Source: a virus. From it: 40,836 nucleotides of DNA. Below, piece by piece: positions 1-40,836 of this stretch; positions within the stretch are counted from its first letter, which is position 1; the number at the start of each line of letters is the position of its first letter. The notes under the pieces were generated by a model. It ran no database searches. It saw only the letters and a program-made list of their open reading frames with translations, and was not told where the DNA came from. Made by a program: the position numbers and the translations under genes. The stretch is from the IMG/VR virus record IMGVR_UViG_3300025128_000111, positions 1 to 40,836 of that record; one strand, given 5' to 3'.

Positions 1-722
1 CTGCCAACTGTCTGTGCCAGGGTCCCTGTAGCTGCTGCCGCAGTGGACAACTTCATGCAGCTTGTGTCGTACTTTGGAATCAACCGATCCATGTTGGTTT
101 GGCTGACTATCGTGGCTGTGGTGTTGCTCACCGTCCAGCTTGTAGTTGTATTACCCACCGGATTCGACAAGACGTTCCATTCAGCCGTCACTGACTGCGG
201 GTCTTCCACAAAGATGTACATCGGGCCTGAACGGATGTCTGGGTTGATGTCATACCAGTCACTCAGTCCGTCCGACGTGGATGTATCGTCGTAAATTAGT
301 CGGAAGGCGTGTTCAAATACATCTTCGCGTAGCCTGGCTTCATCCAAACACTCGAACTTGAGAGACGGATCGTACCGATGTATCTGGTAATCCGTACCAC
401 TAGCCACTGTTTCAGTAAACGGAGGGTCAACAAACACAGTCCCGGTAGCTGAGATGAATTGGGTGATTCGTCGTACCTGATACTCCAGGTTGCTTCCCGC
501 TTCTGTAATGCGGACGTAGAAGTCGAGTATCTGATCATCACCAAAACGAGCTAACGATGTGTCTACTAACGTGGTGAACGTACCGGAACCGGCACTCGTA
601 GTCTCACTAGCCCAATAATCGTTGATGAACTTTGATAGCCCTACAAGTAGGTCACACCCTGAGATGGTGGTAGTTCCACTTGTACCTGTGGGGAATCCTA
701 TACCTACTGGTCCAGCTACCAT
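1..722 (-). CDS. Partial tail protein, second copy (N-terminal part)
   Basis: This is the first 240 or so codons of a tail structural protein. It starts at the ATG ending at 722 and runs off the left edge with no stop codon. It is a close homologue of the complete 456-residue gene at 36568-37938: both begin with a glycine-rich N-terminus, then share a conserved region around a DYQIHRYDPSLKFECLDEA-like segment. It has one extra codon relative to the other copy, near the ITEAGSNLEY segment. The start is preceded by the GGAG-type ribosome site also used by the other copy. It lies just downstream of the small fibre-partner gene. The function is inferred from position between fibre and propeller genes; no catalytic motif is visible. 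Confidence 0.8.
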   Translation of the reverse strand, partial: MVAGPVGIGFPTGTSGTTTISGCDLLVGLSKFINDYWASETTSAGSGTFTTLVDTSLARFGDDQILDFYVRITEAGSNLEYQVRRITQFISATGTVFVDPPFTETVASGTDYQIHRYDPSLKFECLDEARLREDVFEHAFRLIYDDTSTSDGLSDWYDINPDIRSGPMYIFVEDPQSVTAEWNVLSNPVGNTTTSWTVSNTTATIVSQTNMDRLIPKYDTSCMKLSTAAAATGTLAQTVG

Positions 723-735
723 GTCAGGCTCCTAT
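1..735. repeat. Imperfect long direct repeat, left copy A
   Basis: This segment matches about 37220-37952 in the same orientation with scattered substitutions and one 3-base indel. Homology stops abruptly at the last codons of the upstream small gene, just after the shared CAGGCTCCTATC on the plus strand. It is part of the terminal redundancy or duplication. Confidence 0.9.
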
Positions 736-1025
736 CTACCTTGTGCTGTTTTTTCAGCGTCTTCTAGATCGTCAAAATATTTTTTTAGCGTGGCATTTAC
801 AACGACCCAATCACTGCCGTCAAAGGAGTAACAAGCACCGTCTCGATAGCCAGAAGGGAGAGTCACTCCAGTCACAACCTCGTAATCTGCATCTGTAAAT
901 GCGAACGATTCTTCTGTCGCGCCGCCGCTAGTTCCGGATACTTTTGTCGCGTTCAACGTGACGGTTACAGAATCTTCCCAACTCATCCAAATAGAATTGT
1001 CTGCCTTTTTACGAAGTACAATCAT
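732..1025 (-). CDS. Small fibre-associated protein, variant 1
   Basis: A 97-residue protein follows the tail-fibre gene with an ATGA stop/start overlap. Its sequence is rich in Thr, Ser, Val and aromatics, with a D/E/K-rich C-terminal helix, and it has no signal peptide or membrane segment. At the equivalent place in the other copy (37948-38205) there is an 85-residue protein with no visible similarity. It therefore travels with the fibre C-terminus as one exchangeable unit. In many phages a small gene directly after a fibre gene encodes a fibre assembly chaperone or tip protein. That role is inferred here only from position and co-variation. Confidence 0.6.
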   Translation of the reverse strand: MIVLRKKADNSIWMSWEDSVTVTLNATKVSGTSGGATEESFAFTDADYEVVTGVTLPSGYRDGACYSFDGSDWVVVNATLKKYFDDLEDAEKTAQGR

Positions 1026-3622
1026 TGCAAGCTGCTCCCTGTCTGCGTGATAACCACATCTGACGCTGAAGTAGCAAACCCGATAAAGGTATTTGTGCCA
1101 ACTGTACTTGTAATTGCACCAGACGAATCTGCATACACCTTCGCTGCGGGGGTTAGACCTGATTGTTGAGTGTCTTTAGAGCTCAGCCACTTCACATCGA
1201 CTGATTGCCCATTAGTTACAGTGGACTGCGCAATACCAATAAATGTGGCGCTGTTATCAATTCCTGTTGTCGGCTGATACGAACCCGCTTGGAGATAATA
1301 CGGAGATGCCCACGACATACCACTCCACAAATACTTCTGATCGTCGGGACTATACGAAAGACCCCAATCGCCGTTGCTTGCCAGAGTAAAGTTCACTAAA
1401 CCCGTAGTACCAGATGGCAACACAGGTGAGGTTGGTGACGATGCCGCAATGTAATGACCTGACGAAGCGTCATACGCATACGAAAAGATACGTGGCCGCT
1501 GGTAGTCGTTATAGTCCTTTGACATAACAGTAACGGTAGATAATCCATCATCAAGCTGCTGTGTCAAAGGGTTATAGCCCTTATAAAAATATCCATCACC
1601 AGAGGTAAACGTCTTGAAACTCCACGTCATGGTCGTACCGCTTGTCCATGTACCTGCGGCTGTGGTGTTTACGTCTGGACTGTCGGTCCATATTGCAAAC
1701 CATTTTGAATCAGCGCTTCGGTAACACAACTGTAGATTGTTGTTAGAGAAATACGACGTTGACAATGTTTCGACACTACCCCAAGTAATTGAGCCACCTG
1801 CGACAGCACCAATCATATAATTAAGATTAGGAGAACCACTTGTTGCCGCTGCGTTTTGCCATATAAGTAAAATAATATTGTTGTCAGGATCGTATGAAGC
1901 CTTAATAGCCCCTTTTTGGTCGCTATATGATGTACTGTCCAAAGTAGACGTTGCAATGTTGCCGCCAATAGTGATTGTAGTACTACCCGCACTTCCGTTA
2001 TCAACGTCACAGAAATGAGTGCCTGTAGAATTCTGCCAAAAAATTAACGAGTACCCTAAGTCTGGAACATATAAGCCACACTTAGCGTATGTAGTAGAGC
2101 TTTGAGAAAACTGCGTGTTGTTACTCACAGTAAACGCAGAACCGTTACTAGATACTGCAAACAAATAACCATAGTTACTTGCATTGCCATTACTTAGCGC
2201 AACGTACCCAACTTCACCCGTATCGTCATACCACACTGTTGGATAACTAGACGCAGAGTTGTTGGCGTTATAGCTTGTATTGTTTGCAGCTATAGGGTTC
2301 GTTGTGGTTAACGCACCTGATGCAGTTGCAAACCCACTGATTGTTATACCACCGTAATACGGAGTACTTGGATACTGATAGTTCTGATTCATCCTGACGT
2401 GATGGTCGACAGACTTATCGTAGTAACTTGTACCTGCTGGAGTACTCAGGCCCCACATTGGTGAGGACCAGCCGTACCCACTGTTATTTGTTGTACCGTC
2501 ACCAGCAGCGTTAGCGACTAGCGTATTTGCTATTTGTGAGACTGTCCCTGCGGCATCTAATACCACTGCACGGCCAGCAGCGATACTACCGTTAGCAGTA
2601 AATGAGCCTTCTGCGCCACCCGCAGCAGCTACCCATGTAGGTGGATTTGCAGTTGCGTCAGTGCCATTACTCGTCAGTACCGTTCCCGCAGCGCCAAAAG
2701 CTACGCCTGTCAGCACATCGCTGTTGTTTGTGAACACTGCTTTGTTTGCCCCAACACCAAGAGCTGCATCTACTTCACTAAATGTAGGGGCACTTGTAGC
2801 TCCTGCGGATGTCAGTACCGTATTTGCTGCTCCTAGCGGAAGCTCGGTTACGTCACCGCTTGAATCGGAATAAAAGACTTTATTGTTTCCTGCATCCAGC
2901 ATTGTGGCTGCAATTTGTGAAATCGTGGCGCTCTTAGTGGTATTAGAATCATCTGTGTCTGAGATAAGAATCTTATCGTCACCAGCCAGGGCTGCGGCAG
3001 CGGATGAAGCTGCGTTAACGCTCACGTCTACAGCATCTGCGGATGCGACAATCGCATTACCATCGCCTACATCGAGTGTGACATCGCCAGTTAAGCCACC
3101 CCCGGTTAAACCATCACCAGCAGTTACGCCTGTAATGTCTCCTGTGGTACTAGAAACGGTCTGTGTGCCTGTATTATCCTGCCAGTGAAGGGCGTTTGTC
3201 GTGGTGTTGTACCACATATCGCCTGTTTGAAGGGTCGCTGGGTCGCCAGCAGTGCTCCTGGCCATGTTGAATCGGTCGTTAGCATCGACAGTAGTGCCCG
3301 TAAGGGGTGCGTCTCCAGCGTCTAATACGCCATAATCAGAGCCTAACTGTACGTCTCTGCTAGTAAATGTGAAGCCCGTAAGGGTTGGGATCATCGTGAC
3401 ACGTAGTAATGCCACTGCGTCTGTACCATCAAAGTACGCCTGAACGCGCCCTGATGCGTCTGTAATAAGAGGGTTGGCGATAGTCGTTACGCCGGTAAGC
3501 CCTGCATACATTGTCTGTGTAATGTTGGTTGTTGTACCTACCTGTGCCACCTGAATACTAGCCCCGGCTATCGGCACACCTGAGCTGTCGAGTACCTGGT
3601 ATCTCAGTGCTTGACGAACCAT
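1022..3622 (-). CDS. Tail fibre / receptor-binding protein, variant 1
   Basis: This 866-residue protein probably contacts the host surface. Residues 1-110 form a conserved head-proximal domain with a motif typical of phage fibre N-termini (YQVLDSSGVPIAGASIQV). A Gly/Thr/Asp-rich shaft follows, with a GDGLTGGGLTGDVTL-like repeat near residues 169-184. Residues 243-281 and 290-330 are two copies of a repeat ending in a TVLTSNG-type motif plus PTW/F. The C-terminal 500 residues are Tyr/Ser/Asn-rich, beta-propeller-like and aromatic, and are probably the receptor-binding part. The first 281 residues align without gaps to the fibre at 38209-40596 and the rest does not. The start is ATG at 3622 with the AAGGAG ribosome site. 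A terminator lies just upstream. Confidence 0.8.
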   Translation of the reverse strand: MVRQALRYQVLDSSGVPIAGASIQVAQVGTTTNITQTMYAGLTGVTTIANPLITDASGRVQAYFDGTDAVALLRVTMIPTLTGFTFTSRDVQLGSDYGVLDAGDAPLTGTTVDANDRFNMARSTAGDPATLQTGDMWYNTTTNALHWQDNTGTQTVSSTTGDITGVTAGDGLTGGGLTGDVTLDVGDGNAIVASADAVDVSVNAASSAAAALAGDDKILISDTDDSNTTKSATISQIAATMLDAGNNKVFYSDSSGDVTELPLGAANTVLTSAGATSAPTFSEVDAALGVGANKAVFTNNSDVLTGVAFGAAGTVLTSNGTDATANPPTWVAAAGGAEGSFTANGSIAAGRAVVLDAAGTVSQIANTLVANAAGDGTTNNSGYGWSSPMWGLSTPAGTSYYDKSVDHHVRMNQNYQYPSTPYYGGITISGFATASGALTTTNPIAANNTSYNANNSASSYPTVWYDDTGEVGYVALSNGNASNYGYLFAVSSNGSAFTVSNNTQFSQSSTTYAKCGLYVPDLGYSLIFWQNSTGTHFCDVDNGSAGSTTITIGGNIATSTLDSTSYSDQKGAIKASYDPDNNIILLIWQNAAATSGSPNLNYMIGAVAGGSITWGSVETLSTSYFSNNNLQLCYRSADSKWFAIWTDSPDVNTTAAGTWTSGTTMTWSFKTFTSGDGYFYKGYNPLTQQLDDGLSTVTVMSKDYNDYQRPRIFSYAYDASSGHYIAASSPTSPVLPSGTTGLVNFTLASNGDWGLSYSPDDQKYLWSGMSWASPYYLQAGSYQPTTGIDNSATFIGIAQSTVTNGQSVDVKWLSSKDTQQSGLTPAAKVYADSSGAITSTVGTNTFIGFATSASDVVITQTGSSLQ

Positions 3623-3862
3623 TATGTCTCCTTAGTTAAAAAACAGGTGGGCTACTCCCCAGTACTGCCCACCCATTCTTTATCTGCTTAACCCCAGTTA
3701 ACTGGTAGCAAGAACGCAATCATCTTGGTATTGTCCCCAGCAGAGATTCCTTTAATAGTGGAATCATTCTGCTCGAAACGACCAGACTCAACCGTTACAT
3801 ACTTCACGTCATTCGCAGCCATAGTGATAGCCAGGTTGCCCTGACCCTGTACCTGCGCTGGT
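2780..3862. repeat. Imperfect long direct repeat, left copy B
   Basis: This segment matches about 39754-40836 in the same orientation. It covers the 5' part of the fibre gene, the terminator and the 3' part of the decoration gene. Nucleotide substitutions are frequent in the fibre part and rarer in the decoration part. Confidence 0.9.
3637..3673 (-). terminator. Rho-independent terminator after decoration gene
   Basis: On the minus strand, GGTGGGC and GCCCACC form a 7-bp stem at 3667-3673 and 3646-3652, with an inner TACT/AGTA pairing. It is followed by TGTTTTTTAA. It sits between the decoration gene and the fibre gene and is repeated at the right end. It would separate highly expressed capsid genes from fibre genes, with readthrough or a separate promoter feeding the fibre. 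Confidence 0.85.
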
Positions 3863-4065
3863 GGTCTGTCACCAGCCGTGATTGTTACGTTGTTTGCACC
3901 ACCAGCAGAGTCAATGAATCCCAGAAGTACAGGTGAACCAACACCCGTCACATCCAAAGAGAATCCATCAGCACCGGTGGCAATCGCGGTCCAAGCCGCA
4001 ACTGGCAAATCTGCGCTTGCTTCATTAAGGGTTAGTTCTGTGAGTGTTACTGCTGTAACTGCCAT
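3688..4065 (-). CDS. Head decoration-type protein
   Basis: This 125-residue protein is rich in Ala, Thr, Val and Gly, with no charged patches and no membrane segment. It follows the major coat gene by 16 bases and has a strong ribosome site (AAAGGGGA). Size, composition and position right after the coat gene fit a capsid decoration or stabilising protein. The 3' part is present again at the right window edge (40662-40836). The call rests on context rather than a recognised motif. Confidence 0.6.
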   Translation of the reverse strand: MAVTAVTLTELTLNEASADLPVAAWTAIATGADGFSLDVTGVGSPVLLGFIDSAGGANNVTITAGDRPPAQVQGQGNLAITMAANDVKYVTVESGRFEQNDSTIKGISAGDNTKMIAFLLPVNWG

Positions 4066-4081
4066 TTTCTAATCCCCTTTC

Positions 4082-4933
4082 TTATTGCGAAATACAGTCG
4101 GCGTTAGCCAACACGTATGGTCGCGTAATTTTGTATCCGTACAAGTGCAAGCCTTTGATAGCGTCGGAGAAGGCTGACTCAGGTCGGTATCCTTCAACAC
4201 TATTAATCTGCTCTGCGTAGGTAACACCGTCCGAGTGACCGGCGATAACGTAGTTTCGTCCTGCACCAGCAGAAGGAAGGTTGTTAGATACAACAATCCT
4301 CATCCCGGCAGCAGCACCAATGATTCCGTTCTCTAGGTCTTCACGGTTTGCTTGTGTACCGTATGACACGAAGTTTGCGTTTTTCTGTAACCAACCGTGA
4401 TAGAACGGTGGAATTATGCACCAACGGCCAGCTCTTGGCACGTTGTTGGTGTCTAGTTTCACAGCTAAATCAACAAGGTTTTCATACGCATCCACGTTTG
4501 CACCATCACCAATAATCATGGCTCCCAGTGCGTTATTCACATCGCCTTGCGCTTGCATAGCGGCCAATACCGAAGTGTCGGCTGCATCTCCAAGCCCCCA
4601 GGCAGCGTCACGCATAGCTACGTCCATTAGCGCACCATCATCACGTACTTGTCTCGCGTCTACATCATCTACTTCAAATGCAAAGTACTTCGCCTGATCT
4701 ATCGTGAGCACCTGTTGAGAATCGTCGAGAGTCTCAGGTGTGATAGCAGTCGTGTTCTTTACATAATCAGCAATAGTTACACGCCCGATTGATGTAATTC
4801 GGACGGTATCCCCCATCTGGTCTATGTCACCTTCATAGTTTCGGTTACATAGGTTTACGGCAACGTGGGAATCGTTGAGATTCTCCAATAGAGTTGCAGC
4901 CCATAACGAAGGAATAAATCTGTCTACAGACAT
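4082..4933 (-). CDS. Major capsid protein, P22 coat-like
   Basis: This 283-residue protein is the likely shell subunit. The N-terminal pattern (FIPSLWAATLLENLNDSHVA), followed by a region with GDTVRITSIG and then YxKN-like residues, resembles the P22 gp5-type coat family found in many tailed phages. It lies between the scaffold gene (4953) and the decoration gene (4065), the canonical place. It is shorter than P22 coat (about 430 residues) but in the usual range for the smaller family members. A gap of 19 bases with a good ribosome site precedes the ATG. No cleavage motif is obvious, consistent with a separate scaffold. Confidence 0.82.
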   Translation of the reverse strand: MSVDRFIPSLWAATLLENLNDSHVAVNLCNRNYEGDIDQMGDTVRITSIGRVTIADYVKNTTAITPETLDDSQQVLTIDQAKYFAFEVDDVDARQVRDDGALMDVAMRDAAWGLGDAADTSVLAAMQAQGDVNNALGAMIIGDGANVDAYENLVDLAVKLDTNNVPRAGRWCIIPPFYHGWLQKNANFVSYGTQANREDLENGIIGAAAGMRIVVSNNLPSAGAGRNYVIAGHSDGVTYAEQINSVEGYRPESAFSDAIKGLHLYGYKITRPYVLANADCISQ

Positions 4934-4952
4934 GATCTCTCCTAGCTAATAG

Positions 4953-5765
4953 TTAGCCACCTCGGAGAGCTTTATTTCGGACTTCCTTTGGAATCTTCAT
5001 AATCTCTTGTGGTGACATATTTTTAAGTTTTTCTAATGTCAGCACCTGAGAACTTGATGAGGCGCGAGATGGCGTTTCGCCAGCCGCTTGTTTTCGTTGA
5101 GCTAATCGGGAATCGGGAGTGTCGTTGGCAGTCATATTATCTATATACTCCTTAGCGTTACTTACCGCTTCCTCTAATGATTTACCGGGAGTGTCCCAAA
5201 TAGGCATTGCTGCCACTTCTTCTGCTGGGATTCCTTTGGCTTCGGCATAGCCGTACACACGATTTGATGCTTCTGCTGCGCGTCTTGCACCTTCATCTAT
5301 TTGTTCATCTGATACTTGACCAGATGCTTCCGGTGAGGCTCCATTCAATTCCTGGCGTAACTCCTGCTTGGCTTGCGAAAGCGCACGGGTATATGAGTCT
5401 TCTGTCCGTTGGTCGGCAAGAGCACTCTTTCCTTCTTCTGACATCACATCGGATAAACCAATGTCCATCAGACTGCGTATTCCGGCAATAGAAGCCTGTG
5501 TTGTCTCCAGGTCCTGCTTGGTAGCAAACTCCTCAAGGCGATTTGTGAGGCGGTCTAAAGAACTGGTTGCGCGGTTAGTAACGTGTTTACTGTCACTAAA
5601 GTCTTTCCTCAGTTGGTCTAGCTGCGACTGTAATGTCTCGATTTGGTTCGACGGGTCAATCTCTGTCTGTACGTCCACGTCCTCGCTCAGAGCCGTAGCT
5701 TCGGAGTCTTCGGCGAGATCCGCTTCTGTAGTCCACTCGGTCTGAGCATCTACTTCTTGCGTCAT
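4953..5765 (-). CDS. Capsid scaffold protein
   Basis: This 270-residue, strongly acidic protein has a long predicted coiled coil at about residues 40-95 (QIETLQSQLDQLRKDF and the heptads after it). A charged, disordered Ala/Ser-rich middle follows, then a basic C-terminal tail ending in NKALRGG. Acidic N-terminus, coiled coil and basic coat-binding tail are the usual scaffold design, and it directly precedes the coat gene. A good sigma70-type promoter lies just upstream, so the scaffold, coat and decoration genes may form a separately boosted transcript ending at the terminator at 3637-3673. Confidence 0.75.
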   Translation of the reverse strand: MTQEVDAQTEWTTEADLAEDSEATALSEDVDVQTEIDPSNQIETLQSQLDQLRKDFSDSKHVTNRATSSLDRLTNRLEEFATKQDLETTQASIAGIRSLMDIGLSDVMSEEGKSALADQRTEDSYTRALSQAKQELRQELNGASPEASGQVSDEQIDEGARRAAEASNRVYGYAEAKGIPAEEVAAMPIWDTPGKSLEEAVSNAKEYIDNMTANDTPDSRLAQRKQAAGETPSRASSSSQVLTLEKLKNMSPQEIMKIPKEVRNKALRGG

Positions 5766-15192: not shown

Positions 15193-16497
15193 TTATCCAA
15201 ACGTCACATAGTCGCGTTGCATTACACCCGAAGCAGTTCCCCGTCGGCGCTTCGCTTTCATGACCGCCAGTCCAGCAGCCATAATCGAATCATCGTGGTA
15301 TCCCGGAGGGTGGGAGTATTTCACTCCCCCTCCAGGCAATACCGTTCCCTCGAACAATCCCATCTCTTTTTTCAAGATTTCATCGTCCTCGCCGAAATGC
15401 ACACGCCCGTGTTCTACTTCCGCCGCAAGAGTAGACACCAGTGTGGCCTTCGATTGGTTAGTAAATTTGAAACTAGACACTGAACAGCCCTCGTTTCGCA
15501 GTATGTCTGCGACCGGTTCCCCAATACCAGAGCCATCTAGGTGGATGGTTTGACACTTATACCGCTTGTAGAGGTTGGCTATTCGTGGTCCGAGCAGGGT
15601 GTAATCCAGTCCGTTAAAGCGATCTGTCGCTACGAACTGCATTTTCTTGATATCAATCACATAAGCGACGGTATAGTCTTCGATTTTGCCTAAATCCAAG
15701 CCCATAAGGTACGCAGTATCCGTCGGATCTTCCCAGCGAGAGTCGAAACAGTCCTCGAAATTTCTGAATACCTGTCCATCATCTTCCACCCATTCCGCTA
15801 AATACTGCTGTCTGTACTGCGTATCCGTGAGGTCACGCTTAAATTCTTCCAGTGCGTCTTCATCAATGTTCGGATGTGCGAGCGATGTTACTGACGCAGA
15901 GTAGTACCTGGGGTCGTCTTCCTGCCCTACATTCCAATAGGTACGGAAGTTCCCCTTCCCTCTGGCTATACCTATTGCGACTAACCTGCCGTCAGAATCA
16001 GCAAGAGCGGGCATAAAGTTAGCCCATGCTTCCGGATTTAGGTCGTGAGCCTCATCCACAAAGGCCGCTGTCACACGGTCTCCCTGCAATGACGTAGGGT
16101 CGTCAGCCGATTTAGCCTGTATTCGCGCTCCGTTGACTAACTCAATCAGCTTACGAGTCTTGTCATGGGACGCATAAAAGTCTCTTAGAGCAGCTCCCGG
16201 TCCGACAAATAAATTCCAGACCGGCTCCCACACCTTCATGGTGAGTTCGTAGTTGGGGGCTATGACATAGATATAGGGGGCGTGTAACACGCCGAACTGC
16301 TCTTCTTTGGGACGTAACGCCTCACGGACTATCTCCGCTTTAATCGCAGTCGTCTTCCCAGCACGACGACCACAGGCCAGTATTAAACGCTTCTTATTGT
16401 ATTGTCGATGCACATGGTCCCGTTGCCACTCCCACGGCTCATACGGGTCACCATCATTGATGAACTGCCAGATACTAGGACTCTGAAATGACTTCAA
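15193..16497 (-). CDS. terL: Terminase large subunit
   Basis: This 434-residue ATPase-nuclease pumps and cuts DNA during packaging. Walker A is CGRRAGKTT at residues 42-50 and Walker B is AFVDEAHD at 145-152. The RNase H-like nuclease domain shows LDLGK with Asp268, HLDGSG with Asp321, and YHDDS with Asp402/403. The length is normal. The chosen start is TTG at 16497, overlapping the small terminase gene. It is supported by a strong AGGAGGAAGTGA ribosome site just upstream and the absence of a nearby in-frame ATG. Confidence 0.95.
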   Translation of the reverse strand: MKSFQSPSIWQFINDGDPYEPWEWQRDHVHRQYNKKRLILACGRRAGKTTAIKAEIVREALRPKEEQFGVLHAPYIYVIAPNYELTMKVWEPVWNLFVGPGAALRDFYASHDKTRKLIELVNGARIQAKSADDPTSLQGDRVTAAFVDEAHDLNPEAWANFMPALADSDGRLVAIGIARGKGNFRTYWNVGQEDDPRYYSASVTSLAHPNIDEDALEEFKRDLTDTQYRQQYLAEWVEDDGQVFRNFEDCFDSRWEDPTDTAYLMGLDLGKIEDYTVAYVIDIKKMQFVATDRFNGLDYTLLGPRIANLYKRYKCQTIHLDGSGIGEPVADILRNEGCSVSSFKFTNQSKATLVSTLAAEVEHGRVHFGEDDEILKKEMGLFEGTVLPGGGVKYSHPPGYHDDSIMAAGLAVMKAKRRRGTASGVMQRDYVTFG

Positions 16498-21025: not shown

Positions 21026-21335
21026 ATCTTCTTCTCCTTAATCCCATCTCTGTTGCTTGCTTTACTTCTCTACCTATGAAGTCGTGACATGCACGGCAAA
21101 TCGCCATACATTGAACCCATGTACCCCTCGCGTCCGTCGAGCAGCGTTCCAGTATCGACCCTCCCTGTGACCTGGCTAACACTTCATGTACATCTACACT
21201 CTTACCTGTACATACATCTGGTACTTGCGCTTCACACTGCGGATATTCTTTCAGTAATTTCTCCACCAACTTCCTACGCTCGACATACTTAGCTGCCATC
21301 TTCTTAGACCTTGGCTTCATGCGAGAGCGTTTCAT
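21009..21335 (-). CDS. HNH endonuclease
   Basis: This 108-residue protein has a basic N-terminus and the order C34...C42, VHEVLARSQGG (His50), then CRACHDF (Cys80, Cys83, His84). This is a zinc-supported HNH fold. The ATG at 21335 overlaps the upstream stop (ATGA). It is not next to terL, where packaging HNH proteins usually sit. It lies instead in the methyltransferase/PAPS-like cluster and may act in recombination, host DNA cleavage or self versus non-self discrimination. Confidence 0.8.
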   Translation of the reverse strand: MKRSRMKPRSKKMAAKYVERRKLVEKLLKEYPQCEAQVPDVCTGKSVDVHEVLARSQGGSILERCSTDARGTWVQCMAICRACHDFIGREVKQATEMGLRRRRYDSKT

Positions 21336-22129
21336 CAATCCACCTCTGTCATGCAACCACATGCACCAAAATCGTCACCGAATGCCAACTGGTTCTCAGT
21401 CCCGGCATCAATACGCTTGCGTAATTCCACTAACGGAAGCGGTACAGTCTCACCTCCTGCTCGGTCACGCAGAATGGCAACATTCTTACCGAGCTTGGAA
21501 CGCATTGCTTCCTCCTGGCGCTCCCACTCTGTAAAGATATGTTTGACATCGGGGTTCTTGTACACTCGGCTAAACGTGCCGATACCAGCCCTCACGCACA
21601 AGCCCCCACAGTTGTTATGTTCTGCGCCTGTTGAATACAACCGTGGGGCTTTTACTCGGCCCTCGTCCAGTACCTTATCTACCTCCGTGTGCTTGTCCCA
21701 CAATGGCTTCCATAACAGTGGGAAATCTACTTTGTAAGGCTCCCACCTGTGCTGTACGCCCTCAGTTCTATGAGCCTCGGTATAGTCGATGCCGAAATAC
21801 AGTGTTGTGTCGTCAGGATCACACTGCGAACGGACCCACGTCTGAGCTACCTCGTTCTTTAATACTCGTGAACACACTGGCACTCGGTTGTTACCTAAGA
21901 ATGATTGCTCGTCGAATAACTCCCAGATGGTCCGACCATCAGCCAAGCTCACCAGTTGAGCACCAGGTATTAACGCAGCAGACTGAATCAGAAAACGATA
22001 TAAGTCCAAGTCCTCGACTTTGGTATCCGTAAACAACAGCACTATCGGATCGTCGTTATATTCCTGGCGCAACCTATACGCTGCCCCGAAGGATGCCTTA
22101 CCGCCGCTAAAAAATACGACGTGCTTCAT
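21335..22129 (-). CDS. PAPS reductase-like PP-loop protein
   Basis: This 264-residue protein belongs to the adenine-nucleotide alpha-hydrolase (PP-loop) fold. The loop is FFSGGKASF (residues 6-14), followed by FTDTKVEDLDLYRFL, the usual second motif of PAPS reductases. Cysteines at 86, 174, 178, 257 and 259 could hold an iron-sulfur cluster or act in catalysis. Family members include CysH, DndC (DNA phosphorothioation) and many phage proteins of unknown role. The Asp often found in SGGxDS is Ala here. ATGA coupling to a Cys-rich peptide and a C5 methyltransferase suggests DNA modification or nucleotide sulfur chemistry rather than host sulfur assimilation; this is inference. Confidence 0.75.
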   Translation of the reverse strand: MKHVVFFSGGKASFGAAYRLRQEYNDDPIVLLFTDTKVEDLDLYRFLIQSAALIPGAQLVSLADGRTIWELFDEQSFLGNNRVPVCSRVLKNEVAQTWVRSQCDPDDTTLYFGIDYTEAHRTEGVQHRWEPYKVDFPLLWKPLWDKHTEVDKVLDEGRVKAPRLYSTGAEHNNCGGLCVRAGIGTFSRVYKNPDVKHIFTEWERQEEAMRSKLGKNVAILRDRAGGETVPLPLVELRKRIDAGTENQLAFGDDFGACGCMTEVD

Positions 22130-22278: not shown

Positions 22279-22472
22279 AACCTCTCCAACTCTTCTTGCA
22301 CCCAATCCTCAAGCAGACAAGTGCAGTCATATACATGCAGTGAGTGAAAATCACACCACCAGTCCTCGCACATTTCGCACTGCCTGTCCCACCACTCCAA
22401 TACTCGGTGCTCGCCAGTGGGTTCTTCGCAATCCTCACCACATATCACCTCACTGCACGTCACTTTGTTCAT
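22275..22472 (-). CDS. Cys-rich zinc-finger-like protein (65 aa)
   Basis: The ATG at 22472 overlaps the methyltransferase stop (ATGA). About nine Cys and two His are arranged as CSEVICGEDC, then CEMCEDWWCDFH and a final CxC, enough for two zinc sites. It is very acidic. Its place between the methyltransferase and PAPS-like genes suggests an adaptor for that module. No family is recognised. Confidence 0.7.
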   Translation of the reverse strand: MNKVTCSEVICGEDCEEPTGEHRVLEWWDRQCEMCEDWWCDFHSLHVYDCTCLLEDWVQEELERL

Positions 22473-23278
22473 TGAGTGAGTGCCTCCCAACATTCGTGCC
22501 AGGCCAATGCTGCGGTGTCAGGGACGACTCCGTTTCCAATAATGCGGATACGGTCGTTGCGACCGATGTCCAGCCAATGCCCCATCCCATCATCCACTCG
22601 CAGAAATTCGGATTTAAGTAGCGATGGTTGTAGTCCTCCCGCCACACCCACCCATCTTGGGTCCGTGGGTCCGTATGCGAATCTCGACGGGCGCTCCATT
22701 TCGATTGCGGATCTACCTGACGAGCCAACGATGCCGATGGTTTCTTCTTTGCATCCGTTGCCAGAGGCGTAGCCCAAGATAAAAAGCCGTTGTCGTCTAT
22801 GCTGTGCCCCTGTTTCCTCCGCCGTAGCGAGTGTCGCCGCAACTGAGTAACCCATGCCTTGAAGACTGAGGGCGACCTCACTGAATCCGAGTGACAAATG
22901 ATGGGCGACGTTTTCAAAGAAAACCCAAAGAGGCTGAGCTGCTTTGATTCCTGCTTCGATGTAGGGCCAGAGATGCCTGGGATCGGCGGCTCCCAATTTA
23001 GGCCCGACTGCTGAGAACGGCTGACATGGGTAGCCACCCACGATTCCTTCCACTTGTCCACGCCACGCTGCGAAGTCGAAGGTTTTAAGGTCAGACCAGA
23101 TAGGAGCATCAGCCAACGTTCCTTGCGTAATATTGCTGACCAACGTCGCGGCGGCGGTGACTTCTCTCTCAACGTAACAGACTGGGACAGTAGTTCCGCC
23201 TGAGCCTCGGTCAACCCCGGTGTCGAGTCCTCCTGCACCGCTGCAGATGCTGAGGTAGGGATGTAGATCCACACTCAC
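22469..23278 (-). CDS. C5-cytosine DNA methyltransferase
   Basis: This 269-residue protein shows the ordered motifs of the family. Motif I is SICSGAGGLDTG (10-21), motif IV is GGYPCQPFS (81-89, catalytic Cys85), and motif VI is FENV (121-124). Motif VIII is QHRRQRLF (159-166) and motif X is GNGVVP near 250. It methylates C5 of cytosine in a short DNA site. The target-recognition region is only about 70 residues, so the enzyme is shorter than usual. A GTG at 23278 with GGAGG four bases upstream is the best start; GTG at 23272 is an alternative. It leads a tightly coupled gene set. Confidence 0.9.
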   Translation of the reverse strand: MSVDLHPYLSICSGAGGLDTGVDRGSGGTTVPVCYVEREVTAAATLVSNITQGTLADAPIWSDLKTFDFAAWRGQVEGIVGGYPCQPFSAVGPKLGAADPRHLWPYIEAGIKAAQPLWVFFENVAHHLSLGFSEVALSLQGMGYSVAATLATAEETGAQHRRQRLFILGYASGNGCKEETIGIVGSSGRSAIEMERPSRFAYGPTDPRWVGVAGGLQPSLLKSEFLRVDDGMGHWLDIGRNDRIRIIGNGVVPDTAALAWHECWEALTQ

Positions 23279-27656: not shown

Positions 27657-28341
27657 GAACGCAGAGGGCTTGGTGTACGACATAGCGGGAGAGAGAAAGC
27701 GCATTGAGGGCATTAGCTCACGGGATATAATCGATTATCCAGGGGAAATCGGATATGAGTTTTCCCGTGACCCGATGCGATTGATGCTGTCATTTGATTG
27801 GGAGTGGCACAAGCTACCTTCCAAGAGCCAAGTGCAGTTTATGTTGGAGCCGACAAAAGATGAGTTCGGTGTGAAAACAGAGCAACCGCCATTCGTGGCA
27901 CACAGGCACGTTGATGTGGACCCAAACTTAGGGAAAAACCACTACTCACATCTTGCCGTGTTTCCATACTACGCAGCACTCACCATTTATGACTGTTGCG
28001 ATGTAAAGGAACGTGAAGTACGAGTGGATCGGTTCGGTAATCCGATGCAGGACTTACTGGACGCAATGGATGATCCGTCAGTGAACTCTCATCGGTACAC
28101 TAATCCGTTTGCCCACTGGTATCAGGCAACGGTTTGGAGTCGGTACTTTCTGGGGCGCAACGATCTCTACAGCAGGAAACTCGCTGAAAGAGTGTTCGAG
28201 ATGGACCAGAAGTTCGGTGTACGGATACCGAATGTGACGAGACCGGGGCAGAACAAGTACACGAAACTGCTCAAAGCCACTGACGTGATGAACGCTCGCA
28301 CTGCTATTAGGGAGGCGCATCATGCAATCGCACGAATGTAG
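27604..28341 (+). CDS. Unknown protein in immunity/integration region (245 aa)
   Basis: The ATG at 27604 overlaps the repressor end by 53 bases; an ATG at 27586 is an alternative. Sequence segments such as VAHRHVDVDPNLGKNHYSHL and NPFAHWYQATVWSRYFLGRN are aromatic and His-rich, with no HExxH (so not an ImmA-type protease) and no HTH. The end overlaps the integrase start by 20 bases. Being co-transcribed with the repressor and integrase, it could be expressed in lysogeny. Confidence 0.7.
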   Translation: MEVTTLREYNHKPVVFPENAEGLVYDIAGERKRIEGISSRDIIDYPGEIGYEFSRDPMRLMLSFDWEWHKLPSKSQVQFMLEPTKDEFGVKTEQPPFVAHRHVDVDPNLGKNHYSHLAVFPYYAALTIYDCCDVKEREVRVDRFGNPMQDLLDAMDDPSVNSHRYTNPFAHWYQATVWSRYFLGRNDLYSRKLAERVFEMDQKFGVRIPNVTRPGQNKYTKLLKATDVMNARTAIREAHHAIARM

Positions 28342-29641
28342 CGGCCCTGATTGCCGACGTACTGTGTATGAAGACAGTTTCATGTGGCGTAATCGACAGC
28401 GAGTAGGGAGCAAAATTTATCGCATTTATGCGTGCTCTGAAGAATGTTTCAACTACTTTACGGAGTATCAGAAGGTACTTCAACAAGCTAACACAGCATC
28501 TCGGGCTGGCGATGAACTGTCTGGAAGGTTTGCTGACTTCGTTCCACTCTTCCTGCGTGAGTACGCCAAGCTGCGTAGGCGACGGACGACCGGAGTAACG
28601 GTGTCTGCAATGGAACTTCAGTTTCGCAACGACCGTGCAAATTGGTGGGTCGGTAAACTCGGTAACAAATACTTTGAAGAGATCGATTGGGACATGATCG
28701 ACAAGATCTTGTTGGAACAGTTCGAGACGCGCTGGAAGGCCGGGACATGCAAAAAGTATTCAGATACGCTGTCGCTTATTTTTCAAGCGGCCAGTCAGGA
28801 ACGAATATTTCGCCCGAGTCCCTACGCATCTGACCCATTGAAAGCACAGAACCCAGGTAGAGGCCACCACTTCGGTGAGGCTAACACTCATGTGCTTCAT
28901 CGACTCAGCCGAGAAGAGCTAGAGTTGGTTGGCACGATTGGAGCAGGAGTACCGAACTGGTCCACATGGTCCGCTCACGTCGCTACTCAAATAGCGTGGC
29001 GAGCTGGTTTGCGACGCGGTGAGGTGATGGGTCTGCAATGGAAGGATGTCACCGACACCGAAGTTGCTGTCACACAGTCACTGGTGTGGACTGGCCCTGC
29101 CAAATTTGAGATCACAGAGGGTTCTAAGGGCGGTCTGAAGGAGCGTCGAGCGCCGTTTCTGGTGATGTCCGAATGGGGCGAACACCCAGACACAATGAAG
29201 CGGCTGTTGGCTACACACAGAGCCAAGATAGGTGAACTGCAACTGGCTATCGGTGGTGCATGGACTAGCGCACGAATCAACGAGCCGGAAGCATACTTGT
29301 TCCCGGATACTCGGGGCGATTTACAGCGACCTGAGTTTTGTTCTAAGCTCTTCATGCAATACTGCAAGCAGTTAGGGATAGTGCGTATTCGTGAGTCACA
29401 ACGACGCGAAGCAGGAAAATCCGAGAAGAAAGAGTATCCACCCAGGTTCCACGACCTACGGCATACCTATGGCTTTCTACAAGCCCACAGAGGATTACCT
29501 ATCGCAACCGTCCGTGACCTCATGGGACACGCTGATATCCAGACAACTAACTTGTATTTCGATAATGACTCGGACAAAGCAGCCGCTGATCATTACGAAG
29601 AGCAGGAAAGGAGGCGAGTGCTACCCTCAAATGCACTTTAG
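28322..29641 (+). CDS. int: Tyrosine integrase with N-terminal zinc finger
   Basis: This 439-residue site-specific recombinase has catalytic Arg231 (AGLRRGE), Lys in the beta-hairpin near 269-273, His377 and Arg380 (HDLRH), His403 (MGHADIQTTN) and nucleophile Tyr412. The core-binding domain lies at about 65-180. The first 45 residues are unusual: Cys6 and Cys11, then Cys38 and Cys42, form a small zinc-finger-like module of treble-clef type. It should catalyse integration and excision at the attachment site 0.4 kb downstream. Confidence 0.93.
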   Translation: MQSHECSGPDCRRTVYEDSFMWRNRQRVGSKIYRIYACSEECFNYFTEYQKVLQQANTASRAGDELSGRFADFVPLFLREYAKLRRRRTTGVTVSAMELQFRNDRANWWVGKLGNKYFEEIDWDMIDKILLEQFETRWKAGTCKKYSDTLSLIFQAASQERIFRPSPYASDPLKAQNPGRGHHFGEANTHVLHRLSREELELVGTIGAGVPNWSTWSAHVATQIAWRAGLRRGEVMGLQWKDVTDTEVAVTQSLVWTGPAKFEITEGSKGGLKERRAPFLVMSEWGEHPDTMKRLLATHRAKIGELQLAIGGAWTSARINEPEAYLFPDTRGDLQRPEFCSKLFMQYCKQLGIVRIRESQRREAGKSEKKEYPPRFHDLRHTYGFLQAHRGLPIATVRDLMGHADIQTTNLYFDNDSDKAAADHYEEQERRRVLPSNAL

Positions 29642-30017: not shown

Positions 30018-30092
30018 GCGGGAGTAGCTCAGTGGTAGAGCGCGATCTTCCCAAGATCGATGTCGCGAGTTCGATCCTCGTCTTCCGCTCCA
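30018..30092 (+). tRNA. tRNA-Gly (anticodon CCC)
   Basis: A full 75-nt cloverleaf: acceptor GCGGGAG/CTTCCGC with one GU pair, and a D-arm GCTC...GAGC. The anticodon arm is CGATC-TTCCCAA-GATCG with anticodon CCC. The T-arm is GCGAG-TTCGATC-CTCGT, and CCA is encoded. It lies 2 bases from the stop of a convergent small gene. A tRNA next to an integrase is a typical attachment site, so this may be a host-derived attP core that keeps the tRNA whole. Confidence 0.93.
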
Positions 30093-30468: not shown

Positions 30469-31101
30469 TTACTCCATATCCTCGACCTTACCTTGAAGGT
30501 CGTCGATTACATCATTGAGGATGCTTTGCCCTGCATCTATTAGATCGTTGGCTTTCTTCTGGCGCTCATCGAACTCAGCCTGGTTAACAGATATTGAGTC
30601 TTCATTGCCATCATCCAGAAACTTGAACGCATCGTTCAATCCCTTTGACCTAGAGAAGTAGGGGTTGGCTGCTACCGTACAGCCCCAGTGTAAGTGGGGT
30701 CCTGTGCTCTGGCCGGTACTACCAATTACGCCTAAGAGGTCTCCTGCTTTGACGGATTCAGAGCGGCGGACACTTGGCGCGGCATATAGATGAGCGTATA
30801 AAGTGTAGCCAATAAGGTTCCCATCGCTATCATTGTGCCGCAGGAAAGTAGCATTACCAAAAATAGCCGCCACATTTTCCCGCCACGCGACTGTTTCTTC
30901 GGTCGTGAATACATCGTTAACTACTCCATCCATCGGTGCTAACACCGGTGTGCCTTCAGCGGCTGCAATATCTACACCCGAATGTCCCTTGCCCTGACTT
31001 AGTTCGGGCCTGACAACTCCGTAGAATGAAGTGACGCGACCACTCACAGGCAAACCGTTGTAGGTGGTTCCGTTTAGACTTCCTGCGAACTTTAGTCTCA
31101 T
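30469..31101 (-). CDS. M23 peptidase endolysin
   Basis: This 210-residue LysM-free peptidase has the M23 zinc motifs GHSGVDI (His40, Asp44), LYAHL (His104) and GPHLHWG (His136, His138). It cleaves peptidoglycan peptide cross-links. It lacks a signal peptide, so release depends on the holin. The C-terminal 60 residues are acidic and coiled, probably a wall-binding or oligomer part. Confidence 0.88.
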   Translation of the reverse strand: MRLKFAGSLNGTTYNGLPVSGRVTSFYGVVRPELSQGKGHSGVDIAAAEGTPVLAPMDGVVNDVFTTEETVAWRENVAAIFGNATFLRHNDSDGNLIGYTLYAHLYAAPSVRRSESVKAGDLLGVIGSTGQSTGPHLHWGCTVAANPYFSRSKGLNDAFKFLDDGNEDSISVNQAEFDERQKKANDLIDAGQSILNDVIDDLQGKVEDME

Positions 31102-31926: not shown

Positions 31927-32103
31927 TCAGAGACCTTCTATGTTTTGCAGCGTTTCTACGTTACCCGTAGCAGACCAAATAATCCTGGCCCCCAACGCAA
32001 GCCACACCATCACCACAGGTATGAACACCATACCCACCAGGAGCTGTACCCCCGTAATAGTGGTTCCACCACCCTTGCGCTGTTCTCGTTCTTCATCTGC
32101 CAT
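31927..32103 (-). CDS. Single-pass membrane protein (58 aa)
   Basis: The start at 32103 (MADEEREQRKGGG) fits a short overlap with the SLT gene's end. Residues 16-37 form a strong transmembrane helix (VGMVFIPVVMVWLALG). The charged N-terminus would face the cytoplasm. It may be a second holin/antiholin or lysis accessory. Confidence 0.65.
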   Translation of the reverse strand: MADEEREQRKGGGTTITGVQLLVGMVFIPVVMVWLALGARIIWSATGNVETLQNIEGL

Positions 32104-32653
32104 AACAGCTCCACGCGTTCCAGCTCTGTAACATCCAAATCTCATAAGCGATCTGTGCGTTCTCCACAGGGTCGAGCACGTTACGAGTCCCCACTAACTG
32201 AGACCAATAGTTCATGTTGATTTGAAACAAGCCATACGAATCTCCCGAGTCGCCTATAGCGTCCGGTCTACCCGTGCTCTCACACATGATGATGTGATAG
32301 ATCTGCTCGAACATACTGTTGTCCTGTATCCAAGAGCCGTCCTCAATCTGTATGACGTGTCCAGTTACGTGCGAACGCCAGCTTGTCTGAGCCAGGATGG
32401 TTTTGATTTCGTGCTTGGATAGATATTCAACTTCACGTTCAGCCGTAGGTACTGAGACTTCAATGTCTTCTACCATCCTGTCACCCACACCCAACGTCAC
32501 CGGCCCTACAGGGGTGATAAGGAGCGGAGTCACAACCTCAACCACAGGTGGTGGTATTGGAACCGCATAGCTGATGTGGACTACGTCGGGGATGGTGGCT
32601 GGCATGAGTAGGAATACTCCTAAAGCGACACCGATTCCCAACGAGCGTTTCAT
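32093..32653 (-). CDS. Secreted SLT-type lytic transglycosylase
   Basis: This 186-residue enzyme has an N-terminal signal/anchor (residues 3-22), a Pro/Val-rich linker, then a lysozyme-like SLT domain. Catalytic Glu125 is in MCESTGRPDAIG and GLFQIN lies at 141-146, with a Trp-rich end (WNAWSCYGR). It cuts glycan strands of peptidoglycan. The signal and short linker imply export by the host or a virion role in entry. It overlaps the membrane-anchored beta protein gene by ATGA. Confidence 0.8.
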   Translation of the reverse strand: MKRSLGIGVALGVFLLMPATIPDVVHISYAVPIPPPVVEVVTPLLITPVGPVTLGVGDRMVEDIEVSVPTAEREVEYLSKHEIKTILAQTSWRSHVTGHVIQIEDGSWIQDNSMFEQIYHIIMCESTGRPDAIGDSGDSYGLFQINMNYWSQLVGTRNVLDPVENAQIAYEIWMLQSWNAWSCYGR

Positions 32654-34466: not shown

Positions 34467-36568
34467 TATGCGTACACCTTTCCGGTATCCCATGCACTCA
34501 CGTCGTAAACCAAATCGTCACCCAGATCCGTGAGTTGGTTAATCTGGGCAAACGACACTGTATATACCTGTAGGTCACGACCATCCTTCGCCATCACGCC
34601 AGCGGCGCGTAGGTTGAGCATCTTGACTGAATAGGTCCGATTAAAAATGTCGGTGAGGGTGATGAGTCTGTCTGAAGCGTTAAATAAAAAGTTCTCGCTG
34701 ACCTTTGCTCCGTGCCGGGAATTACCGCCACCCTTCAGTGGGAGATCGTCACCAACCAAGATGTCGCACTCGAACAAACGGCGGCGCTTCGGAGCAATCG
34801 TGGTGTCCAGTACCACTGAGTCAATCGACGCGACGTTCTTTTCTGTCGCACGAGTCATTTTCAGGATGTACCGAATCTTGTTGAACCTGATTTCTGTAGT
34901 GATACGGAACGACGCATTATCGTCTGTCGCTATACCAATGGACGTACCAGTAATGTCACCTTTACGCACGTTTTCAAGGAACGTATCCGCATAGTTCGTT
35001 GTATCCGTCACATAGCTAATCGTTGTAGGAGACGATTCATTGGCAGTGGTCGATAGCACACGCGCACCGTTCAATAACTTCTGAGATGCTGCTTGCCCGA
35101 CATCCACCCAGGGACCCACCACATACTGACCCTGCGTATAATCATCATCAAAGGCGTAGTCTGGATCGGTGTCAGGTAACATGCCTACCTTTGGAAGCCT
35201 GAACCCACCAAGATACCCGTATGACGGAGCGCCTATACCTGTCGCATCAGTGCCAAAGAGTAGGTAGGGGTTAGTGTCTGTGATTAATCCTGCACCAAAT
35301 ACGCCGATACCTTTAATAGCTGGGTACTGTATATATGTGAGAGTGTGGAAATTAGTTGTACCTGGTAGCCCCTTCATGATGTAGCTCACGCCTCGGTCGT
35401 TTACAAGCGAGAAATACAGCCACTCAGAGTCGCCACTAATCCCGGTAATACGTCCGTCTAACTCTTCTGAACCAGCCTGAGCCGCACTAGGAGGCCATAC
35501 AATCGTCTGTGTATTGTTGTTTGGGTCTATCTGTAAGATGCGTCTGCCGTATTGGACGTATATATTGCCGTCACTCCACACATACGGACGCGACCCGTTA
35601 CCGGCTCGTGAGTACCACGGCTCTGCATTACCTGTGTTATCCCAGACGCTGAGAGAATCAGATCCGTCAGTGCGCCAGATTGAATTTACTTTGAACACAT
35701 ATATAAAGTTGCCACCGATGATCATCCCAGCGACGGTGTCGTTGAGCGAGTCGCCTAACGCAATGGCCGCTGACCACGCAGCACCGCCGTTTTGACCGTT
35801 GACGTTAGATCGCACTTCACCAGCCCCGTTTACACCCCAAAGATACGGACTGCCCGATGTCTCTCCACGAATGGCAAAAAACAACATTTCTGCGTTTGAT
35901 AAATTGCTTTGGGTCCAAGTCACTCCATCATCGGTAGAGTAGTAGTACTTAATAGCTGCACCAGTAGACGTAACCATCCCAGCCACAAACAACGTGCCGT
36001 TAAAGTCGATGATGTCTGTCATTGCAAAACCGGACGCGAAACTGAAATTAGCCTGGGTCCACGTCGGTGTAGCTCCACCAGTAAAGTACCAAAGATACTG
36101 TCCACCAAACGCCCACACATACCCTGTGCTTGGTGCGTAATAAAACTTCACCTCTGGATTCGGATCTCGTGTATAGCCTGTGGAGGATGTGAAAAACAAT
36201 GAGGACGCAAGCGACGTCTGATGATACTGGACATCAGGACCGGCATAGAGCTTTCCTGCGTAGCTTGCATCCACACCACGAGTAAACGAATACTTGGTTA
36301 GGGACCCGGCTTCTTCATACTCGACTGAGTTAAACGCACAGCCACCCTGCCAGTTCTCATAGGCCACTGGAACTTCTACCTCGATAGGCACAGAAGCGTA
36401 ATCGAATGACGCGGTATTGAATTGTGGTGTGACCTGCTCAGATAGTGACGCACGGTAGCCGAGTATGCCGTCAATATCGTTCAGCATGAACCCTAGCTTC
36501 TGATTATCTACCTCCAGGTAAATGTCGTAAGGGGTATCTACCCGTGAGCCGGTACTGATGAGTGCCAT
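34466..36568 (-). CDS. Beta-propeller tail protein (700 aa)
   Basis: This large protein has repeated short segments like STGYVWAFGGQYLWYFTGGA and YYSTDDGVTWTQSN, which are BNR/Asp-box or propeller blades. The SxDDGxTW motif is the Asp-box. It ends in a mixed alpha/beta part. It could be a tail hub, a receptor-binding or glycan-binding protein. The start is in a TAATG overlap with the 456-residue gene. Confidence 0.65.
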   Translation of the reverse strand: MALISTGSRVDTPYDIYLEVDNQKLGFMLNDIDGILGYRASLSEQVTPQFNTASFDYASVPIEVEVPVAYENWQGGCAFNSVEYEEAGSLTKYSFTRGVDASYAGKLYAGPDVQYHQTSLASSLFFTSSTGYTRDPNPEVKFYYAPSTGYVWAFGGQYLWYFTGGATPTWTQANFSFASGFAMTDIIDFNGTLFVAGMVTSTGAAIKYYYSTDDGVTWTQSNLSNAEMLFFAIRGETSGSPYLWGVNGAGEVRSNVNGQNGGAAWSAAIALGDSLNDTVAGMIIGGNFIYVFKVNSIWRTDGSDSLSVWDNTGNAEPWYSRAGNGSRPYVWSDGNIYVQYGRRILQIDPNNNTQTIVWPPSAAQAGSEELDGRITGISGDSEWLYFSLVNDRGVSYIMKGLPGTTNFHTLTYIQYPAIKGIGVFGAGLITDTNPYLLFGTDATGIGAPSYGYLGGFRLPKVGMLPDTDPDYAFDDDYTQGQYVVGPWVDVGQAASQKLLNGARVLSTTANESSPTTISYVTDTTNYADTFLENVRKGDITGTSIGIATDDNASFRITTEIRFNKIRYILKMTRATEKNVASIDSVVLDTTIAPKRRRLFECDILVGDDLPLKGGGNSRHGAKVSENFLFNASDRLITLTDIFNRTYSVKMLNLRAAGVMAKDGRDLQVYTVSFAQINQLTDLGDDLVYDVSAWDTGKVYA

Positions 36569-37938
36569 TATTGATAAGGACTACGGATCGTGGGTCGTTG
36601 CGGTATGACGTATCCCCACGCTTTCGTCGCATCCTTCTTTCTGTCTATGATCTGGATTCTTCTGGCAATGGTTTCAAACTCTTCCGTAGTCAGCCCTTCA
36701 CGCTCGAACAGGATTTCTGCTGCGGCTCCGTACAGTACCTGTGCTGACCCCTGGTCAAGCTCCATCGTGTTCGTACATTGGGTCGCTGGGACACTCCCAA
36801 GCTCTGACAGATACTGTCTCCCGACCATGCGGATCTGCCGTCCATTGGTGGGAACCCAAGAGAGCTGAACCTTCTGTGTAGTGGCATCACGTCTGATGAG
36901 GTGTGCTTCGCGCCACGGGTACACGTCCTGTATAAGATTGGACTCCCCGTAGTAGAGCCATGCGCGGTTAAAGAATGCGGTCGCACCTGTTGATGTCCCT
37001 CCTGCCACAATTAAGGTCGCTGTCAACGTGGCGGCGTTCGTCGGAGAGATGTTCTTCTCTACCGTAAGCAGCTCCCAACCTGTACCTCCATGCAACGAAG
37101 AAGCAGTATCACCATCATCGTCAGTGAGCTGAATTTTGACCCCAGAGGTGTCACGAGTATTCACCCACATTCCGAACGTCATGCGCCGTCCTGCGGCTTG
37201 TGAGGCTGTTATGGACATGCTGCCGACTGTCTGTGCCAGAGTCCCTGTAGTCGCTGCCGCAGTAGCCAATTTCATGCAGCTTGTGTCGTACTTTGGAATC
37301 AAGCGATCCATGTTGGTTTGGCTGACTATCGTGGCTGTGGTGTTGCTCACCGTCCAGCTTGTAGTTGTGTCACCCACCGGATTAGACAAGACGTTCCATT
37401 CAGCCGTCACTGACTGCGGGTCTTCCACAAATATGTACATCGGGCCTGAACGAATGTCTGGGTTGATGTCATACCAGTCACTCAGTCCGTCTGACGTGGA
37501 TGTATCGTCGTAAATTAAGCGGAAGGCGTGTTCAAATACATCTTCGCGTAGCCTGGCTTCATCCAAACACTCGAACTTGAGCGACGGATCGTACCGATGT
37601 ATCTGGTAATCCGTACCACTAGCCACTGTCTCGCTAAATGGCGGGTCTACAAACACAGTCCCGGTAGCAGACACAAACTGAGTAATGCGCCTTACGTCGT
37701 ATTGCAGGTTCCCTGCACCTGTGATTCTGACATAGAAATCAATGATCTGATCGTCACCAAAACGTGACAACGATGTGTCTACGAGCGTATTGAACGTACC
37801 TGACCCTGCACTCGTGGTGGTACTAGCCCAATAATCGTTGATGAACTTACTAAATCCTACTAATAAATCACACCCTGAAATAGTAGTAGTCCCACTAGAG
37901 CTAGTGGGAAATCCTATACCTACTGGTCCCATTACCAT
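36568..37938 (-). CDS. Tail protein (456 aa), complete copy
   Basis: This 456-residue protein follows the fibre partner gene with ATG at 37938. The N-terminal 180 residues are neck/tail-like (DYQIHRYDPSLKFECLDEAR). Residues about 180-340 form a carbohydrate-binding-like beta sandwich (ATTGTLAQTVGSMSITASQ; GRRMTFGMWVNTRDTSGVKI). The end is helical (AAEILFEREGLTTEEFETIA). It is probably a tail-tip, adaptor or fibre-connecting protein. Its N-terminal half is repeated at 1-722. Confidence 0.7.
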   Translation of the reverse strand: MVMGPVGIGFPTSSSGTTTISGCDLLVGFSKFINDYWASTTTSAGSGTFNTLVDTSLSRFGDDQIIDFYVRITGAGNLQYDVRRITQFVSATGTVFVDPPFSETVASGTDYQIHRYDPSLKFECLDEARLREDVFEHAFRLIYDDTSTSDGLSDWYDINPDIRSGPMYIFVEDPQSVTAEWNVLSNPVGDTTTSWTVSNTTATIVSQTNMDRLIPKYDTSCMKLATAAATTGTLAQTVGSMSITASQAAGRRMTFGMWVNTRDTSGVKIQLTDDDGDTASSLHGGTGWELLTVEKNISPTNAATLTATLIVAGGTSTGATAFFNRAWLYYGESNLIQDVYPWREAHLIRRDATTQKVQLSWVPTNGRQIRMVGRQYLSELGSVPATQCTNTMELDQGSAQVLYGAAAEILFEREGLTTEEFETIARRIQIIDRKKDATKAWGYVIPQRPTIRSPYQ

Positions 37939-37952
37939 GTCAGGCTCCTATC
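37220..37952. repeat. Imperfect long direct repeat, right copy A
   Basis: Same orientation as 1-735, with scattered substitutions and one codon indel. Confidence 0.9.
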
Positions 37953-38205
37953 GTCGCTCGTTATTTCCGTATGTATCAGAATTAAAATACGGGCGGTCGT
38001 GTACCGTGGCGAGCAAGTATTCCTCAGCCGTCGCCGTTATAAGCTCCCATTCATCAGTCGTGATGTCGGTGCGCTCCCATGACTGCGACGCATCAAAATA
38101 ATCCGTTTCCGTTACTGACAATTTTGTATCGTCGAGCGCGACCGTATCCGTATCTTTGAAAATCCATCGGATTTCACGCGATACCTTAGATCTAATTAGT
38201 TTCAT
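37948..38205 (-). CDS. Small fibre-associated protein, variant 2
   Basis: This 85-residue acidic protein sits exactly where variant 1 (97 residues) sits in the left copy, but shares no visible sequence with it. It has DTVALDDTKLSVTETDYFDA and a helical TAEEYLLATV end. It starts 4 bases after the fibre stop. Co-variation with the fibre C-terminus suggests a cognate partner, such as a chaperone or tip protein. Confidence 0.6.
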   Translation of the reverse strand: MKLIRSKVSREIRWIFKDTDTVALDDTKLSVTETDYFDASQSWERTDITTDEWELITATAEEYLLATVHDRPYFNSDTYGNNERR

Positions 38206-38208
38206 TGG

Positions 38209-40596: not shown

Positions 40597-40610
40597 TATG
40601 TCTCCTTAGT

Positions 40611-40647
40611 TAAAAAACAGGTGGGCTACTCCCCAGTACTGCCCACC
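40611..40647 (-). terminator. Rho-independent terminator, right copy
   Basis: Same stem (GGTGGGC/GCCCACC) and T-tract as 3637-3673. Confidence 0.85.
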
Positions 40648-40661
40648 CGTTCTTTATCTGC

Positions 40662-40836
40662 TTAACCCCAGTTAACTGGTAGCAAGAACGCAATCATCTT
40701 GGTGTTGTTCCCAGCAGAGATTCCTTTAATAGTGGAATCATTCTGCTCGAAACGACCAGACTCAACCGTTACATACTTCACGTCATTCGCAGCCATAGTG
40801 ATAGCCAGGTTGCCCTGACCCTGTACCTGCGCTGGT
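40662..40836 (-). CDS. Partial decoration protein, second copy (C-terminal part)
   Basis: The last 57 or so codons and stop of the decoration gene enter from the right edge. The sequence is nearly the same as 3688-3862, with few substitutions. This makes the right edge meet the gene whose complete copy is at 3688-4065. Confidence 0.85.
   Translation of the reverse strand, partial: PAQVQGQGNLAITMAANDVKYVTVESGRFEQNDSTIKGISAGNNTKMIAFLLPVNWG

Follow-up and report, generated by a model that had tools for sequence, protein, structure and literature searches.

The 40,836-bp record analysed here (the window), classed as a virus and without end repeats, very probably represents one marine tailed-phage genome assembled about 1.1 times from two co-existing genotypes that have a near-identical core, one of which, genotype A, would carry an imported fibre block, with one cassette expected per virion. 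The observations that carry this reading are the homology of the two ends, the single-copy state of the locus in relatives, the linkage of allele B to the core, the closure of the map in a relative, the breakpoints in allele A, and the co-variation of the fibre with a small ORF. The record should be read neither as a 40.8-kb genome nor as a phage with two fibre systems.

Homologous ends of the record

Self-BLASTN of the window returned only two repeats, both in the same orientation with E=0: positions 1–736 match 37220–37952 at 87.9% identity, and positions 2864–3862 match 39838–40836 at 83.1% identity. The second repeat reaches down to 2828 in an ungapped search and, in a weak part, to 2780 in a global alignment, and self-comparison detects no DNA similarity between ~740–2780 and ~37955–39750. 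These results confirm the initial annotation, according to which 1–735 and 2780–3862 are homologous to 37220–37952 and 39754–40836 and enclose an unrelated middle block. Identity varies along both repeats. The left end is 94–98% identical to its inner copy across most of 1–410 (88% over the first 50 bases) and 63–80% identical further inward, at 450–735. On the right side identity is 55–84% across most of 2780–3580, with one 50-bp bin at 92%, and 96–100% in the outer part at 3580–3862.

On the minus strand the gene order is capsid, 125-aa protein, fibre, small ORF, and 456-aa protein (Table 1). The contig is truncated inside the 456-aa gene on the left and inside the 125-aa gene on the right. 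The partial genes at the edges are the same genes as those inside, as had also been proposed: 240 codons of the 456-aa gene are kept at the left edge, and the 5' part of the 125-aa gene lies beyond 40836.

Table 1. Features of the window at and around the fibre locus, with the capsid and terminase genes.
Feature	Position	Strand	Remarks
Left flank of allele A, in the 456-aa gene	1..410		native-clade, ~96–97% to 37220–37629
456-aa gene, 5' part (240 codons), allele A, cut by contig end	3..722	-	
Putative imported segment of allele A, between breakpoints 405–414 and 3575–3587	411..3575		informative-site test and sliding identity
97-aa small ORF overlapping the fibre stop, allele A	732..1025	-	
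Putative tail fibre / receptor-binding protein, allele A, 866 aa	1022..3622	-	conserved N-terminal ~280 aa, exchangeable C-terminus
125-aa protein, phrog_24894 (unknown function), shared flank	3688..4065	-	
127-mer identical to the contig right end	3736..3862		putative fork vertex, from alleles A and B to the shared core
Major capsid protein, phrog_267	4082..4933	-	
Terminase large subunit, Terminase_6N/6C	15193..16497	-	
456-aa gene, complete copy adjoining allele B	36568..37938	-	
85-aa small ORF, allele B	37948..38205	-	
Putative tail fibre / receptor-binding protein, allele B, 795 aa	38209..40596	-	modelled beta-propeller-like domain ~290–640
Last 127 nt of the contig	40710..40836		identical to 3736–3862

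Circular map and probable assembly fork

A separate contig of 6,718 bp (L004) carries allele B and matches window positions 35272–40836 at 99.7% identity (16 differences in 5,565 bp). Past window base 40836 this contig continues into window positions 3863–5015 with 1153 of 1153 bases identical, and allele B is thus joined directly to the core that the window joins to allele A. All 16 differences lie within 35336–35879 of a 700-aa gene and form a local SNP cluster. One unit measures 36,974 bp if it contains allele B and 37,219 bp if it contains allele A. The relative G001 (37,655 bp) is collinear with the window over the entire map and carries a single A-type cassette, and sequence from its start recurs at its end (1–92 with 37146–37237 and 98–220 with 37533–37655), corresponding to a map of ~37.1 kb. 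The initial annotation had suggested closure into a circle of ~37 kb, and both L004 and G001 support it. The contig of G001 (L069/L070) likewise extends beyond its start, and a ~290-bp variant insertion sits at the overlap, a strain-variant closure of the same kind. The record is thereby supported as one marine phage genome with a circular map of ~37 kb, the contig having been carried past its own start to about 1.1 times around.

The last 127 nt of the window are exactly those of 3736–3862, and base 128 differs; this is the only 127-mer repeated in the window, and no 128-mer is repeated. The assemblers metaSPAdes and MEGAHIT leave maxK end sequences where repeats or within-population variants break contigs, and k=127 was the largest k used with metaSPAdes in the COBRA study (PMC10914622). 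The 127-nt end overlap is consistent with a fork in a de Bruijn assembler, with assembler and k=127 read from the sequence itself. No exact k-mer overlap with the core exists at the left end, where identity to the sequence at 37220 breaks at base 6, and we therefore infer the linkage of allele A to the core on that side from the homology of ~96%.

Two probable alleles of one fibre locus

The 456-aa gene is single-copy in 17 of the 17 relatives that have it (21 relatives searched), and the fibre N-terminus occupies one place in each of the 26 records that have it (29 records searched), where two distant records giving two adjacent pieces of one 889-aa frame were scored as having one place. Searches with the 456-aa gene and the fibre N-terminus found a second copy of the cassette in no relative. 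The A-type cassette occurs singly and at the same place in G001 and G007, as does the B-type cassette in L004, G002, G003, G017, and G022. Between the window and L004 the core is 99.7–100% identical, whereas the fibre blocks of alleles A and B at the same locus are unrelated. The evidence favours interpreting the two contig ends as alleles of one fibre locus in co-existing versions rather than as two cassettes of one genome.

The affinities of the allele A cassette contrast with those of its flanks, in that the outer flanks are 96–99% like B whereas ~411–3575 matches a different clade. Breakpoints were determined from informative sites on each side using four references (G004, G005, G011, and G001) and 2000 permutations. 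The breakpoints at 405–414 and 3575–3587 agree for the four references, none of the 2000 permutations reaches the observed contrast in any test, and sliding identity agrees with these positions, both of which fall within coding sequence. Outside the breakpoints A follows B; with G004, for example, the site counts are 92 versus 9 and 47 versus 2. Inside the right breakpoint each of the four tests places A with the other clade (142 versus 54 sites with G004). Inside the left breakpoint the preference for B is lost, with A leaning to the other clade with G004 (42 versus 17) and G005 (40 versus 30) and about even between the clades with G011 and G001. As judged from these affinities, allele A is a recombinant with a segment swapped in from a related phage clade. 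The B cassette resembles G002/G017 in the fibre N-terminus and the small ORF, and the core does too, so that B probably represents the resident type and A an imported one, a direction read from the shared affinity.

Genotypes A and B would thus co-exist with a near-identical core, presumably in one sample. Genotype B would carry the usual receptor-binding cassette of its clade, comprising the fibre, its small partner ORF, and the start of the 456-aa gene. In genotype A precisely this block would have been replaced by ~3.16 kb from the related clade, through homologous recombination within the conserved flanks. The assembler would then have built A, core, and B in succession, stopping one k-mer (127 nt) after the fork on re-entry into the core, and each virion would be expected to carry a single cassette.

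Alternative explanations

The initial annotation offered either a mixture of strains or a true duplication, and of these the mixture is favoured while the duplication finds no support. Under duplication one genome would hold both fibre cassettes and the ends would be divergent paralogues, in keeping with the presence of both cassettes on one contig, and some phages do carry several fibre genes. Such a genome is extremely unlikely, however, because each copy sits in the same gene context, abutting the same core, and B runs straight into the core of A in L004 (1153/1153), so that carrying both would need the core to be duplicated too; in addition, no relative has two copies and the contig stops after exactly one 127-mer of the core.

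A pure chimera, with allele A deriving from an unrelated phage and joined to the core through a short shared sequence, would account for the left end lacking a k-mer overlap with the core, and assembly joins can be wrong. It is nevertheless very unlikely, since A is flanked on both sides by native-clade sequence (1–410 and 3587–3862, ~96–99% identical to B) in which SNPs relative to B are scattered, and since the change to foreign sequence lies ~150 bp away from the 127-mer, which places the switch within the sequence of allele A itself rather than at the joint made in assembly. A programmed switch, in which an invertible or shufflon-like cassette flips one genome between A and B, might also leave two alternative cassettes on a single core, but its probability is close to negligible: no flanking inverted repeats of note were found, the only recombinase found is a tyrosine integrase at 28322–29641, far from the locus, the breakpoints fall within coding sequence, and neither allele is an inverted copy of the other. 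The replacement of a cassette in one of two co-existing genotypes is thus retained as the best explanation.

Predicted function of the fibre genes

Neither fibre has a match in Pfam or PHROG or among isolated phages. A PDB search with the two fibre profiles gave weak or chance matches only, one of them a weak match to a phage neck fibre (E=0.00055). The model of the allele B fibre has a mean pLDDT of 52.5 and contains a strand-rich domain of moderate confidence at ~290–640. This moderate-confidence domain resembles sialidase-type beta-propellers and the Photorhabdus lectin PHL, with a TM-score on target of up to 0.66, and also matches viral proteins, including one of Lentibacter phage vB_LenP_ICBM2. 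The model of the allele A fibre, with a mean pLDDT of 39.4, is too poor to interpret. The label of fibre, given in the initial annotation, finds no family match, but the partial fold match, the sequence layout, and the exchange pattern speak for it. Receptor binding is the likeliest reading of these genes, in which case the exchange between A and B most likely changes the surface receptor that is bound and may affect host range.

Fibre tips and small ORFs among relatives

Comparison across relatives reveals that the fibre N-terminus is conserved and the C-terminus exchanged. By pairwise comparison the C-termini fall into at least six groups; apart from short stretches, members of different groups show little or no similarity. 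The small ORF after the fibre groups as the fibre C-terminal type in every relative compared, with weak similarity across groups. Exchange extends to distant genomes: G014 and G016 share 76–78% of the allele A C-terminus and 80% of the small ORF, while their 456-aa gene and capsid are only ~38–62% alike. G011 and G021 have 83% of the C-terminus in common and 90% of the small ORF, although relative to allele A the fibre N-terminus is 96% alike in G011 and ~50% in G021. No significant family match was found for the small ORFs, and a role as a chaperone or cap for the fibre is a guess. A tentative and rather doubtful extension is that at least six interchangeable fibre tips circulate as a common pool within the lineage, and that each of them is tied to a specific small partner protein. 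These blocks might be exchanged between genomes, including phages with ~40–60% identical neighbours, via conserved anchors located where the fibre gene begins and within the N-terminal portion of the 456-aa gene. The sharp breakpoints together with the paired small ORF make the module boundaries testable.

Remainder of the genome and host leads

The tyrosine integrase lies next to a complete tRNA-Gly (CCC) gene at 30018–30092, a likely attachment-site region, which suggests that the phage is temperate; no relatives of the integrase were found in the viral contig collection. Further genes include PAPS reductase-like (PHROG 424; 21335–22129), C5 cytosine methylase (22469–23278), M23 peptidase (30469–31101), and SLT lysozyme-like (32093–32653) genes. 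Isolated phages include none close in terminase, 456-aa gene, or fibre, the latter two being undetectable there. A search of bacterial genomes with TerL found one 16 kb contig (L079, PAAV01000053.1) with a terminase 84% identical, binned in a Chloroflexi MAG (NAT137), which may be a host lead or a mis-binned phage contig. No host is claimed, because a capsid gene was not found in this MAG and the tRNA comparison gave mainly 75–79% matches.

Comparison with known systems

Near-identical marine phages are known to vary in their tail fibres, at what are called metaviromic islands (Mizuno et al., 2014, PMC3909814), long reads show alternative gene arrangements within viral islands (PMC6487183), and in haloviruses a tail-fibre genotype has been tied to a host strain (PMC11631230). 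The window resembles metaviromic islands in its near-identical core and its divergent fibre block at the same locus, and differs from them in that both alleles are full on one record and the breakpoints are mapped to ~10 nt in assembled sequence. The exact end overlap of 127 nt, at what would be a fork between strain variants, is like the maxK breaks described for COBRA (PMC10914622), although here the overlap joins the end of one contig to its own interior because the genome map is circular. The distant Alteromonas phages A5 and V22 share modules of a tail fibre and its cognate chaperone (PMC10579305), and the fibre tip and small downstream partner described here likewise move together between distant phages; the small ORFs here have no significant family match, and the likeness is one of arrangement. 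The host-recognition variation is of a known kind, in a new lineage and with unusually clear breakpoints, and provides a well-mapped natural example of the exchange of a host-recognition module in an uncultured group of marine phages.
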